From the NCBI GenBank assembly GCA_030696085.1, contig JAUYNL010000013.1, positions 1 to 40,690 on the forward strand: DNA of 40,690 nt, written 5' to 3'. The notes below the pieces were generated by a model. That model saw only the letters and a list, made by a program, of their open reading frames with translations. It made no database searches and was not told where the DNA came from. A program made the translations under genes and the position numbers. Source of the DNA: Luteolibacter sp. (GTDB lineage Bacteria; Verrucomicrobiota; Verrucomicrobiia; Verrucomicrobiales; Akkermansiaceae). Below are positions 36,254 to 40,556 of the stretch, one piece after another (position 1 is the first letter of the stretch; every line of letters begins with the position of its first letter).

Positions 36254-36865
36254 TCAGTAGGGACTGCTGACAATGATGTAACTTTCGCCCTGGCGGCGGT
36301 AATACCGATCCCCGGACTGATAGTATTTTTCCCCACGATGGTTCACTTCTCGATAGCCGTTAGGAAGACGGGTGATGACTTCATTGCCTTCATACTGCTG
36401 GTCATGACGGTTGGATGACTGCCGAAAGTCCCGGCTCGGCTGCTGGCTCCGGTGGCGGCGACCATAGTCGTCATAGTAACGGCTGCTGCGGGGCGCATCG
36501 ACAACCACATAGCCGCCGGAACCCTGGCGATAGTAATAACCGTCGTGATAATAGTAGGTGCTGCCCGAGATGGTTTCGCTGCGGTAGCCTCCCGGAAGAG
36601 AATTAACCCTGTATCCCGGCCGGTAGGTGGTGACGGTCGCGGAATCGCCGCCGTATGAATCATAGGGGACCACGCAGGATGAAAGTCCCATGCAGAGGGC
36701 CACGCCTGTAAGAATCCACATCGGCCTGAAGAATCCATGCGATTTGCCGGAGGCAAATCCGCTTTCGCTGCTGGCGTGTCCCGCCTCATCGGCGCAAGAA
36801 ATGTGCGACTCCTGGTGGGGATTGGTTGTTTTGATATCCCGTAGGTTATTGTTTTTGAATTTCAT
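36254..36865 (-). CDS. DUF6515-type putative lipoprotein with two Tyr-rich repeats
   Basis: The 203-residue protein has a membrane-targeting stretch WILTGVALCMGLSSC ending in a lipobox (LSSC), then a Tyr/Arg/Ser-rich body. Two related units can be aligned: LPGGYRSETISGSTYYYHDG with YYRQGSGGYVVVDAP, and LPNGYREVNHRGEKYY with YYRRQGESYIIVSSPY at the C-terminus. This L-P-x-G-Y-R..YY..YYR pattern belongs to the DUF6515 type found in envelope proteins. About 65 residues precede the lipobox from the ATG at 36865, long for a lipoprotein, so translation could start at the ATG at 36720 instead. The gene is divergent from the histidine kinase. Confidence 0.7.
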   Translation of the reverse strand: MKFKNNNLRDIKTTNPHQESHISCADEAGHASSESGFASGKSHGFFRPMWILTGVALCMGLSSCVVPYDSYGGDSATVTTYRPGYRVNSLPGGYRSETISGSTYYYHDGYYYRQGSGGYVVVDAPRSSRYYDDYGRRHRSQQPSRDFRQSSNRHDQQYEGNEVITRLPNGYREVNHRGEKYYQSGDRYYRRQGESYIIVSSPY

Positions 36866-37105
36866 GACGGCTTGTTTCCTTTTTGGGTTGATGGTCATCA
36901 TCCAACAGTGGCGGATGCGATATGTAAGCCCCCCATGGCGGGGTTTTCCATGGGGTGAAACCCTACGGTTTCAGCATGCGCGGGAATTCAGGTCAAAAAA
37001 TTGGGTTGCGACCGGGACTCAGGTCGAACATCCTGCAGCCTGTGGCGAGAGAGGAATTTCGAATGCCCGCGTCAGGACAGCTTCGAAGATCCGGTTGAAA
37101 AACGC
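36866..37105. promoter_or_regulatory. divergent promoter of lipoprotein and kinase with shared 14-nt motif
   Basis: Two elements stand out. CCCCATGG at 36931-36938 and CCATGGGG at 36948-36955 form a perfect eight-base inverted repeat with a nine-base spacer. The motif GGGTGAAACCCTAC lies at 36953-36966, overlapping the right arm; the identical sequence occurs on the other strand at 39555-39568. GAAACC-CTAC-GGTTTC at 36957-36972 is also a hairpin. No -35/-10 pair can be named with confidence. Confidence 0.45.
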
Positions 37106-38788
37106 ATGAAAAAAAATCCACCACCGGTCCGGCGAGTACGGAAGCCCCATACAGCGGTTCTCGAAAAAGGACGCGCATCGCAAGCGCCGATTTCACCGGA
37201 ATCCGAACTTGATGTCCATCAAATCGAGCTGGAGATACAGAATACCGAACTCCGCCTGGCACTCGATGATGCGGAAGTCCTGCTTGATAAATACACTGAA
37301 CTCTACGATTTCGCACCGGTCGGCTACTTCACCCTCGCGACCGACGGCACCATACGGCTCGCGAATCTAACCGGTTCCGCCATGCTCGGCATCGGACGCG
37401 CGAATCTGATCGGCCGCTCCTTCGGCATGCTCGTGGCCCATGGGCAGTGCGCCGGGTTCAAGGCCTTTCTGAAGCAGGTTTTCGCGGCTGAAACCAAACA
37501 ATCCGGGGAGTTCGATCTGGCAGACGCGAACCTTGCGACCCGTGTCGTCATGATCGAAGCCCGTCGCGCACCCAACGGACTGGAGTGCAGCGCCATGATT
37601 CTGGACATCACCGCGCGCCGACAGGCCCTGGAGCGGATGCGCGTCTCGGAAATCCGCTACCGCCGCCTTTTTGAAGCGGCGCATGACGGCGTCCTCCTCA
37701 TCGATCCTGATACCCGGAAGATCATCGACGCCAATCCCTTCATGACCCGCCTGCTCGGCTATCCGCGCGATCAGTTAATCGGCAAGGAACTGTTTGAAAT
37801 CGGACTGCTCAAGGATGAGGCGACGAGCCGGCAAATGTTCCGCAAGCTGAAAAGAAGCCACGAGGTCCGCTATGAGGACCTGCCGCTGGAAAGCCAGGCG
37901 GGACGCCGCCAGGAAGTCGAGGTGGTCGCCAACCTCTATCATGAGGACGGCCAGCCCGTGATCCAGTGCAACATCCGCGATATCACCGTGCGTAAGCTGG
38001 CCGAGGACATGTCGCTCAGGAATGTGAAATTGAATCTGGAAATCGCCCGCAGAAAGGTCGTCGAGGAGGACCTGCGGGCGAACCGCAGGGAGCAAAGCCG
38101 TCTCCTGAGGCAATCGCGGGTGCAACAGAAACACCTGCGTGACCTCTCCCACGCGATCCTGCACGCCCAGGAGGAGGAGCGGAAGCGTATCAGCCGCGAG
38201 TTGCATGATGTCATCGCCCAGTCCCTGGTGGGCATCAATGTCCATCTGGCGCTGCTGGCCCAGGGAAACGTCGCATCTCCGGAAACCCTGCGGCAGCAGA
38301 TTTCCAAAACGCAACGGCTCGTCGAGAAGGCGGTGGAGATCGTGCATGTCTTCGCCCGCGAATTGCGCCCGACCATGCTTGATGATCTGGGGCTGATTCC
38401 GGCGCTCCAGGCATACCTGAAGCAATTCATGGAAGACACCGGAATCAGGGTTGGTCTGAAGGCGTCCGCGAAGATCGACCAATCGGCAACCAGGGTGCGC
38501 ACGGTGCTCTACCGCATCGCCCAGGAAGCGCTCACCAATGTGGCCCGCCATGCCAAGGCCAGCCGTGCCGAAGTCCGCATCGAGTGTCTGGAAGACGTCA
38601 TCCACATGACCATCCAGGACGACGGCCAGGGTTTCCAGGTCAGCGGGAAAGCGGGCTCGAAGAAGAAAAACCGGCTGGGCCTGATCGGCATGAAGGAACG
38701 TGCGGAGATGATTGGCGGCACCTTCCAAGTGGACTCCGCGCCCGGCGGCCCCACCGTGATCCAGGTGGAGATTCCCTCCGTCAGTTGA
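37106..38788 (+). CDS. PAS-domain sensor histidine kinase, HisKA_3 (NarX/DegS-like) type, orphan
   Basis: The 560-residue protein has a basic N-terminus, a first PAS domain (about 70-185, with YDFAPVGYFTLATDGTIRLAN), a second PAS (about 195-310, FEAAHDGVLLIDPDTRKIIDAN), a long helix (about 310-360), and the HisKA_3 dimerisation part EEERKRISRELHDVIAQSL with the phospho-acceptor near His367. The ATPase domain (about 470-558) shows NVARHAKAS, DDGQGF and GLIGMKERAEMIGG. No membrane segment is visible, so sensing should be cytoplasmic. Kinases of this type normally partner a LuxR/NarL-type regulator; none lies in the window. The ATG at 37106 (MKKNPPPVRR) is preferred to 37001, whose extra 35 residues look non-coding. 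A strong terminator follows. Confidence 0.9.
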   Translation: MKKNPPPVRRVRKPHTAVLEKGRASQAPISPESELDVHQIELEIQNTELRLALDDAEVLLDKYTELYDFAPVGYFTLATDGTIRLANLTGSAMLGIGRANLIGRSFGMLVAHGQCAGFKAFLKQVFAAETKQSGEFDLADANLATRVVMIEARRAPNGLECSAMILDITARRQALERMRVSEIRYRRLFEAAHDGVLLIDPDTRKIIDANPFMTRLLGYPRDQLIGKELFEIGLLKDEATSRQMFRKLKRSHEVRYEDLPLESQAGRRQEVEVVANLYHEDGQPVIQCNIRDITVRKLAEDMSLRNVKLNLEIARRKVVEEDLRANRREQSRLLRQSRVQQKHLRDLSHAILHAQEEERKRISRELHDVIAQSLVGINVHLALLAQGNVASPETLRQQISKTQRLVEKAVEIVHVFARELRPTMLDDLGLIPALQAYLKQFMEDTGIRVGLKASAKIDQSATRVRTVLYRIAQEALTNVARHAKASRAEVRIECLEDVIHMTIQDDGQGFQVSGKAGSKKKNRLGLIGMKERAEMIGGTFQVDSAPGGPTVIQVEIPSVS

Positions 38789-38803
38789 TGATGAATACAA
38801 CAA

Positions 38804-38840
38804 GACGCCTGCGGCGAACCGCAGGCGTCAGAGCTTTTTT
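38804..38840 (+). terminator. strong intrinsic terminator behind the histidine kinase
   Basis: GACGCCTGCGG at 38804-38814 pairs perfectly with CCGCAGGCGTC at 38819-38829 around the tetraloop CGAA. The tail is AGAGC then TTTTTT. It lies 16 bases after the kinase stop and 18 bases before the stop of the convergent fasciclin gene. Confidence 0.87.
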
Positions 38841-38858
38841 CAGGAACAATGGCGGGGC

Positions 38859-39431
38859 TCAGTTGTCGAGACCTACGAATCCATCAAGCGATTTCGGCAC
38901 CAGCACCTTGCCGATGCTGTGCATGACACCATTGTTGGCGGTGACATCGGTGCTGAATAACTTTGCTCCATCGACTTCGATCTTGTCGCTTTCAACATCG
39001 ATTTTCAATTTCGCGCCGTTCACGGTTTTCACGTCTCCATCGATGAGCTCGGCGGCAAGTATCCTGCCCGCGACCACATGATACAACAGCAGCATGCGGA
39101 GTTTCTCCTTGTTCTCGGGAAGCATGAGCTTGGCGAGCGTCTCGGCTGGCAGTTTGCCGAATGCCTCGTCCGTGGGCGCGAAAACCGTGAAGTCACCTTT
39201 GGCTCCAAGGGTGATGTCGAGCTCCGCCGCCTTGAGGGCCTTCGTGAGCGTGGAGAATGTGGCGCTGTCAGCAATCACCGCGGTGAGTGATCCCGGTTGG
39301 ACGGTGGCTTTCTCCTCCATCACCGGCTTGTCAGCCGGTTTGTCAGCCGTTTCGGTCTGCGCGAATGCGGATGGATTGAGCGCCGCCATGGAAATGAGCA
39401 GCACGGTGTGGGTCAGGTATTTTGTTCTCAT
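38859..39431 (-). CDS. secreted fasciclin (FAS1) domain protein
   Basis: The 190-residue protein has a signal peptide (LTHTVLLISMAALNPSAFAQ, cleavage near residue 24), a short charged linker with DKPADKP, and one FAS1 domain over about residues 48-188. Family landmarks are FSTLTKALKAAELDITL, FTVFAPTDEAFGKLP (the H1 region), LLYHVVAG, and NGVMHSIGKVLVP (the H2 region) at the end. FAS1 domains mediate adhesion or matrix binding; bacterial single-domain versions are common in envelope-stress or biofilm contexts. The start at 39431 places the signal peptide first. The gene is divergent from the YXWGXW gene. Confidence 0.9.
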   Translation of the reverse strand: MRTKYLTHTVLLISMAALNPSAFAQTETADKPADKPVMEEKATVQPGSLTAVIADSATFSTLTKALKAAELDITLGAKGDFTVFAPTDEAFGKLPAETLAKLMLPENKEKLRMLLLYHVVAGRILAAELIDGDVKTVNGAKLKIDVESDKIEVDGAKLFSTDVTANNGVMHSIGKVLVPKSLDGFVGLDN

Positions 39432-39611
39432 GGTCTGATTTTGGTTTTCGGATAGACTCTTGTGGCCACCCTTGACGGATGAAGATGGCTGGTCATGACA
39501 AGCCGCGCCATGGGGTGTATCCCGCACTTTATCGGGCTGGATGCGACACCCGAAGTAGGGTTTCACCCTATTGCTCCAAGAAGGATACGGAGTGACATTC
39601 TGACCTCCCGA
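39432..39611. promoter_or_regulatory. divergent promoter of fasciclin and YXWGXW genes with shared motif
   Basis: GTAGGGTTTCACCC at 39555-39568 is the exact reverse complement of the motif at 36953-36966. It is part of the small hairpin TAGGG-TTTCA-CCCTA. To its left, CATGGGGTGTATCCCG around 39510 resembles CATGGGGTGAAACCCT around 36950, and GGGTGT...ACACCC forms a wider hairpin. The similar makeup of the two divergent regions suggests common control. Confidence 0.45.
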
Positions 39612-40556
39612 ATGATGAACATCAACCTAATGGAAATGCAGACGAACCGGAACCCACGTCATATCATGCGACGGATTTCAAAGTTCGGAATGGTGGCGGC
39701 ACAGACCGTCCTGATCGGCCTCGGGGTCACCATCGCAACGAGCCAGACGGACTCTGGTGTTGACGACCAAGGGGCGCAAGTGCTCACCCGGGGTCCGGTC
39801 CATGAGGCTTTCGCCGGTATCGTCAATTACAATCCCGAACCGGGCGTCATCGTGGAAAAAGCTCCTCCCGAAGCCATTGAGGAACTGCCGCCGGGAGAAC
39901 GGCCGGTAGGTGACAACATCACCTGGATTCCGGGTTATTGGGCCTGGGATGACGAACGGAGCGACTATCTCTGGCTCAGCGGCATGTGGCGCGCCCTGCC
40001 GCCAGGCCGCCAGTGGACCACCGGCTATTGGGCGGCAAGCGGGAATGACAACCAGTGGATTTCCGGATACTGGGCTGATTCCGAAGAGCGGGAGACAGCC
40101 TATCTGCCAAAACCTCCAGTGACCGTGGAGGCCGGCCCCAATGTCGAGGCACCGTCGCGGGATCATGCCTGGACCCCCGGCTCCTGGATGTGGAATCAGG
40201 AACGTTACGCGTGGAGGCCCGGATATTGGGCGCAGGGACGGACCGACTGGGAATGGATTCCCGCCCACTATGTGTGGACGCCGCGAGGATACATTTTTGT
40301 CGATGGTTATTGGGACTACAGCGTGGAACGCCGGGGGCTTCTCTATGCTCCGGTATATTTTCAATCGGGCTACCATTCACGCCCGGGATATCATTACTCG
40401 CCGGTGATCGCCATCGATGTGGTGTCGTTGATCGAACATCTTTTCCTGCGGCCTCGCTACCATCATTACTACTTCGGAGACTACTATGCACCGAGATATC
40501 GGGACAACGGGTTCTACTCGCCATACGCATTCCAATCCAGCAGCTACGGATACTGA
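39612..40556 (+). CDS. YXWGXW repeat-containing secreted protein
   Basis: The 314-residue protein has a signal peptide (from the in-frame ATG at 39666, MRRISKFGMVAAQTVLIGLGVT). A domain rich in Trp/Tyr/Gly repeats at about 100-225 follows: WIPGYWAWDD, WTTGYWA, WISGYWA, WTPGSWMW, WRPGYWAQG, WIPAHYVW and VDGYWDY. A Tyr/His-rich C-terminus (RPRYHHYYFGDYYAPRYRD) ends the protein. The YXWGXW repeat family is secreted, of unknown function, and typical of Verrucomicrobiota and Planctomycetota; a structural or surface-layer role is often supposed. The ATG at 39612 or 39666 is possible; the signal peptide favours the second. It lies at the right edge and is complete. Confidence 0.85.
   Translation: MMNINLMEMQTNRNPRHIMRRISKFGMVAAQTVLIGLGVTIATSQTDSGVDDQGAQVLTRGPVHEAFAGIVNYNPEPGVIVEKAPPEAIEELPPGERPVGDNITWIPGYWAWDDERSDYLWLSGMWRALPPGRQWTTGYWAASGNDNQWISGYWADSEERETAYLPKPPVTVEAGPNVEAPSRDHAWTPGSWMWNQERYAWRPGYWAQGRTDWEWIPAHYVWTPRGYIFVDGYWDYSVERRGLLYAPVYFQSGYHSRPGYHYSPVIAIDVVSLIEHLFLRPRYHHYYFGDYYAPRYRDNGFYSPYAFQSSSYGY

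Follow-up and report, generated by a model that had tools for sequence, protein, structure and literature searches.

A near-palindromic promoter element recurring across Verrucomicrobiota is the probable binding site of a NarL-type response regulator

Introduction

Two-component systems of the NarL/FixJ type, such as NarXL, LiaSR/VraSR, NreBC and UhpBA, combine a REC-GerE regulator with HisKA_3 kinases and a palindromic operator near -35, and in NarXL/NarQP there is more than one kinase per regulator. DosR/DevR of mycobacteria is a NarL-type regulator as well; many stress genes are preceded by its GGG...CCC palindrome, and the core of its box is GGGACT/AGTCCC. The SigB/Rsb system has CsbD-type targets and the signalling protein RsbU, which joins an RsbU_N domain to a PP2C-type phosphatase. 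In Alphaproteobacteria, EcfG/PhyR feeds two-component signals into a broad stress regulon, and EcfG promoters carry GGAAC...GTT.

The locus analysed here, in a 40,690-nucleotide stretch of Luteolibacter sp. DNA (the window), leads to a system that shares three features with the NarL/FixJ group, namely a receiver plus GerE regulator, a HisKA_3/HATPase_c kinase and a palindromic operator near a computed promoter; its operator sequence and target set, however, differ from those systems. The NCBIfam equivalog cut-offs for MctSR, LiaSR, NarXL and UhpBA were not reached, the best scores being 186.9 of 300 for MctR and 180.3 of 700 for MctS, with LiaS at 96.4 of 450. The dyad is not the DosR box, and the Pfam table of the window kinase holds PAS domains instead of a DosR-type GAF domain. 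Unlike RsbU, the RsbU_N protein found here carries a HisKA_3-like stretch and no phosphatase domain, and the output appears to be a response regulator acting with a sigma-70-type -10 rather than a stress sigma promoter; the TANNNT -10 together with the dyad argues against an alternative-sigma promoter of the SigB or ECF kind, and the promoter is unlike the EcfG consensus. In the titles and abstract openings that our searches of the open-access literature brought up, we found neither the promoter nor the regulon described.

Results

The starting point was a 14-mer, GGGTGAAACCCTAC, which the original prediction placed in two divergent promoters of one envelope cluster. Both copies are present, at 36953-36966 (plus strand) and 39555-39568 (minus strand), and the window holds no other exact copy. 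Each lies between the two genes of a divergent pair, and Pfam matches agree with the genes named for them, DUF6515/HisKA_3 kinase and fasciclin/WXXGXW protein. The whole genome (110 contigs, 3,765,543 bases) contains one further exact copy, at C81:16096 on contig C81, against a chance expectation of ~0.03 copies (by arithmetic) and none in the reversed genome control, in line with the view that the match is unlikely to be accidental. The nearby boxes said to be common to both promoters are also there: CATGGGGTG occurs at 36949-36957, overlapping the first copy of the 14-mer, and at 39509-39517, where it is part of a weaker site with 4 mismatches. GGGTGAAACCCTAC is most of one near-palindromic 17-bp site that has a direction, GTAGGGT-N3-ACCCCAT. 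The features of the region are as follows.

36254..36866, minus strand: DUF6515 lipoprotein gene (Pfam DUF6515 4.7e-11, scanned from 36901), predicted target of site 1
36922..36927, minus strand: TTACAT, in the -10 position belonging to site 1 and one base off TANNNT
36950..36966, minus strand: site 1, perfect GTAGGGT-N3-ACCCCAT towards DUF6515
37106..38788, plus strand: PAS-PAS-HisKA_3-HATPase kinase (Pfam), probable extra sensor for the regulator on contig C38
38859..39431, minus strand: fasciclin-domain secreted protein (Pfam 2e-34), predicted target
39510..39526, minus strand: proximal site facing fasciclin, degenerate with 4 mismatches, its -10 being CATCTT at 39482-39487
39555..39571, plus strand: site 2, GTAGGGT-N3-ACCCTAT, one mismatch when read towards YXWGXW, its -10 being GACATT (39594-39599)
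39615..40556, plus strand: YXWGXW/WXXGXW secreted protein (Pfam WXXGXW 8.5e-09), predicted target, start uncertain (39612 to 39690)

The DUF6515 start codon was picked by eye, an AGGA-like stretch preceding the ATG at 36866. Read in the kinase direction, site 1 departs from the consensus at 4 positions and lacks a suitable -10, and no such promoter was detected for the kinase, so that the kinase is unsupported here as a target. Site 2 read towards fasciclin has 3 mismatches, and its TAAAGT lies one base beyond the usual distance. Matches with 4 mismatches to the 17-bp consensus number 17 in the window and 14-27 in ten Markov-generated windows, hence the proximal fasciclin site alone is no better than background. 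Around it lies an 18-bp block, GGGATACACCCCATGGCG, that the related locus L077 shares letter for letter in its fasciclin promoter, and the rest of the upstream region has diverged. Every window site has a -10 element that departs from TANNNT. Taken together, the window probably contains three targets (DUF6515, YXWGXW and fasciclin) and one sensor, and no regulator gene was found in its 36-40.7 kb part.

Alignment of 70 sites in one direction gave the consensus G-TAGGGT-N3-ACCCCA-T-N-G, after which A and T recur at set positions, each in 71% of the sites. We counted TANNNT by offset in 61 of these sites, leaving out nine rows from loci of an extra-G pattern, one of which is also a core-pattern site. 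TANNNT is present 3, 20, 7 and 2 times at offsets 37, 38, 39 and 40, respectively, and 21 times altogether at the 68 remaining offsets of the range 18-89. The spacing is conserved while the bases between dyad and -10 vary. From the end of the dyad to the -10 there are 22 bp, and the next hexamer leaves a 17-bp spacer. We take the TANNNT -10 to be sigma-70-like; if it is placed as usual, the dyad would be centred at about -43, beside a weak hexamer with a 17-bp spacer, a geometry from which we infer class II activation. Judged by sequence, the layout is that of a putative activator site overlapping the -35 region. The extra-G variant of the pattern was met in 8 of 288 genomes, at 10 places, and control matches were more numerous than that. 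In genome G640, three sites stand in tandem (C11:11355, 11378 and 11401) at a 23-bp spacing, about two helical turns.

In the genome as a whole, a search for the full promoter that allowed up to 3 mismatches gave seven places, on contigs C56, C38, C69 and C81, twice in the window and on C44, with two matches in the reversed control. The gene behind the C56 site encodes a small lipoprotein whose single Pfam match, MT0933_antitox, is below cut-off. Behind the C69 and C81 sites lie genes of two paralogous secreted 'APPGKG' proteins, that of C69 having no match in the Pfam scan. The C38 site is followed by genes for entericidin and a DUF5670 protein, and after these by those of a HisKA_3 kinase and a NarL-type response regulator (denoted RR). 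Two dyads with 1 mismatch were considered as promoters and taken as chance, C44:26379 because it is inside a called gene and C69:143831 because it is absent from the full-promoter matches. We also observed that the C69 site (L028:1504-1520) is directly behind a stretch (L028:370-1437) holding, by resemblance, a ZraP/CnrX-like gene and an ECF-like sigma gene (871-1437); downstream of it are the APPGKG proteins and a gene that resembles those of P-type ATPases.

The core TRGGGT-N3-ACCCTAC, which contains the GGGTGAAACCCTAC copies, has five occurrences in this genome and none in its control, and it is present in 24 of the 59 genomes searched. Within the genus it gave 56 matches against 2 in the control; in the other 22 genomes of the order this short pattern was not above control (10 against 20), and outside the genus only the full promoter was. 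When no more than 1 mismatch was allowed, 54 of the 387 genomes sampled from the phylum contained the full promoter, with 230 sites altogether and up to 24 per genome, compared with 3 matches in all in the reversed control; in one of the 54 (G559), the three matches are an artefact of a short tandem repeat. Among genomes with a relative of the window kinase, 9 of 50 match the full promoter. These include six of the seven with a verrucomicrobial title, all but that of L087, and the genome of L083, titled 'bacterium', in which a NarL-type regulator stands behind the kinase. Two of the other 42 match, an Anaerolineae genome with 2 sites and a Chitinophaga genome with 1, and these look like chance. 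The 14-mer is thus, on sequence grounds, the core of a predicted promoter that recurs across Verrucomicrobiota before small envelope or stress-type genes. Counting in the genome and in relatives, as had been proposed for this motif, shows that it recurs beyond the cluster, on C38, C56, C69 and C81 and in other genomes, and is not exclusive to the window.

In the loci examined, which include a set chosen for its high number of sites so that the counts are not those of a random sample, we found 185 distinct sites with at most 1 mismatch and a -10. Only 6 of the 185 lie inside a called gene, the opposite of the scatter over random places that would have spoken against the motif. A correctly oriented gene follows within 450 bp at 162 sites (median 105) and at 23 there is none; genes at the loci, including kinase and regulator neighbourhoods, were called with a simple script. 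Removing 5 proteins longer than 800 aa from 153 non-redundant first genes left 148 for Pfam scanning, and in this likewise non-random set the families were BON (15), Ice_binding (12), DUF5670 and Entericidin (8 each), CsbD (7), DUF883_C (6), DUF3309 (5), HisKA_3 (4), and LpxR, Response_reg and RsbU_N (3 each). None of these target families is among the families with at least two of 107 control genes, which come from the own genome only and for which 25 of 156 families were listed, so that single members may occur among the controls. The target families are linked with stress and envelope in other bacteria. The target set resembles general or envelope stress genes rather than adhesion genes, and the adhesion system proposed originally finds no support. 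Co-regulation of the site-bearing genes is well supported by the shared promoter sequence.

Three arrangements at these loci may be recorded. L255 and L256 (G538:C226) have many sites in less than 30 kb, several of them before ice-binding-like (PF11999) proteins. In L048, L172 and L177, a site stands between a divergent ketoacyl-synthase (PKS-like) gene and an asparagine synthase-like gene. At L054:1501-1558, L073:1501-1558 and L169:1618-1675, two facing sites with starts 42-43 bp apart stand between CsbD and the gene of a short histidine-less kinase-like protein.

The regulator RR is encoded at C38:32452-33129 and has a receiver (Response_reg 1.6e-26) and a GerE/LuxR helix-turn-helix (GerE 1.1e-17); GerE matches in the genome number nine over cut-off and one weak. 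A search with the DNA-binding part of RR found matches at 1e-18 in 56 of 387 genomes. RR is present in 39 of the 54 motif genomes versus 17 of the 333 others (Fisher 7e-28, too small a value because shared descent inflates significance), and genomes with RR hold 194 of the 230 sites. Among 59 relatives, 20 of them with RR, the regulator occurs in 14 of 15 genomes with at least two core sites versus 6 of 44 others (Fisher 4e-8, inflated by kinship in the same way), and within the genus alone in 11 of 12 versus 2 of 25. A control LuxR-type regulator was found in 14 of 387 genomes at 1e-16; five of these have the motif, all five with RR, and of the six that are without RR none has it. Comparison by hand of the 18 relatives that have both RR and a core site showed such a site within ~5 kb of an RR gene in 13 and none within that distance in four; the own genome also belongs in this tally via its C38 site, which has 1 mismatch and is within ~5 kb of RR. 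At the threshold used, RR was not found in 15 motif genomes, some of which have 3-7 sites (G554, G422, G436, G413, G591), and a full site within 1 mismatch was not found in 17 RR genomes. The nearest relative, G001, whose contig carries the L077 kinase, has site and kinase but no RR match. RR is the probable DNA-binding regulator, and we consider it likely, from co-occurrence and proximity, that the motif is the binding site of this NarL/LuxR-type response regulator.

The genome has eight HisKA_3 matches. The DHp domain of the window kinase is 58% identical to that of the C38 kinase and 19-33% identical to those of the six others, and both kinases carry HisKA_3 and HATPase_c. A NarL-type regulator lies in the examined stretch of 7 of 12 named kinase loci (L077-L087, L099); in L079 and L083 it immediately follows the kinase, and in G316 (L250) a kinase with the same N-terminal signature as the window kinase overlaps the regulator gene by 4 bases. 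The window PAS-PAS-HisKA_3 kinase is therefore most likely a further cytoplasmic sensor for RR. Of the suggestion that the cluster has its own sensor kinase, the link to a kinase survives through this DHp resemblance, but its role as a target of site 1 is unsupported here. Residues 163-301 of the kinase (window 37592-38008, the PAS region) are 65-73% identical to stretches from Alphaproteobacteria or from proteobacterial MAGs (L089-L091, L093-L096, L104), a level higher than would be expected of the kinase's other parts.

One short protein (201-244 aa) is met repeatedly; it looks like RsbU_N followed by HisKA_3 and has no ATPase domain. At the phosphoacceptor position it has N or Q in 8 of 9 readable cases (three nearly identical) and H in one, three unreadable proteins being left out; all nine of the longer kinases have H there, including four that are cut by a locus end. 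Examples with N or Q, each with a HisKA_3-like stretch and no ATPase domain, are L175:1196-1918, L060:674-1408, L054:682-1407 and L085:5677-6408, the first of which has RsbU_N, a weak HisKA_3 match and no phosphatase domain. These short histidine-less proteins are possible pseudokinase partners.

Discussion

That the motif is chance or a dispersed repeat can practically be dismissed: apart from the tandem repeat in G559, which does behave in this way, the -10 spacing is conserved while the intervening bases vary, few sites fall inside genes (6 of 185), and 3 control matches stand against 230. A plain 14-mer repeat is ruled out by the dyad with its fixed -10. An envelope or adhesion system private to this cluster and equipped with a kinase of its own would explain why both copies and the kinase lie within 2.6 kb. 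We regard it as very improbable, since sites are also present on four other contigs and in many other genomes, the target families are stress-like and the 36-40.7 kb part has no regulator gene; as a private adhesion operon it is contradicted by the genome-wide sites. What stands of the co-regulated system first proposed is the shared regulatory site, the co-regulation of envelope-type genes and the link to a sensor kinase, and what falls is its restriction to the cluster, since the sites are genome-wide and phylum-wide.

Two further readings accept the promoter as real. In one, GTAGGGT-N3-ACCCCAT is the -35 region of an alternative ECF-type sigma promoter, as the fixed distance between box and -10 and the ECF-like sigma gene (L028:871-1437) just upstream of the C69 site might suggest; this is improbable, given that the box is near-palindromic as expected for a dimer, that 22 bp from its end to the -10 is too long for a -35/-10 spacer where the next hexamer gives 17, that TANNNT is sigma-70-like, and that RR tracks the sites. 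In the other, the site is shared and functional but bound by another regulator (LuxR-type, or a CRP- or MerR-like activator), RR being just a target in the neighbourhood. Because RR genes adjoin sites, RR as a mere target would also co-occur with them, and the 15 motif genomes without a detected RR fit this reading too. We nevertheless find it unlikely, since the second LuxR-type regulator shows no independent association and the DNA-binding protein met again and again in the site-bearing clusters examined is RR.

With RR as the preferred regulator, its dimer would bind GTAGGGT-N3-ACCCCAT, centred ~43 bp upstream of the transcription start and beside a weak -35, and would recruit polymerase with an ordinary sigma-70-type factor to the TANNNT -10 by class II activation. 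Phosphorylated RR, encoded outside the window, would switch the promoter on, stress being the presumed signal. The predicted regulon comprises small envelope, periplasmic and stress-type proteins, with DUF6515, YXWGXW and fasciclin as its window members. RR and its own kinase lie downstream of such a promoter on C38, presumably co-transcribed with entericidin and DUF5670, and the circuit is for this reason probably self-reinforcing. The window PAS-PAS-HisKA_3 kinase is most likely an additional cytoplasmic sensor, which would feed RR by phosphotransfer.

On a wider proposal we are evenly divided. Verrucomicrobiota may answer general or envelope stress with no sigma factor dedicated to it, through a single self-reinforcing activator of the NarL type that reads a 17-bp dyad before housekeeping-sigma promoters; several kinases would feed in (soluble PAS-PAS, RsbU_N-like and possibly CheB/CheR-PAS hybrids), and a short RsbU_N/kinase-like partner, having lost the phosphoacceptor histidine and the ATPase domain, would tune the response. 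The promoter can be recognised from sequence and gives a testable list of targets in dozens of genomes. It would tie DUF5670, DUF3309, DUF6515, YXWGXW and ice-binding-like proteins to one response and names a single regulator for them, and the control of stress and envelope genes in Verrucomicrobiota would thereby become directly testable.
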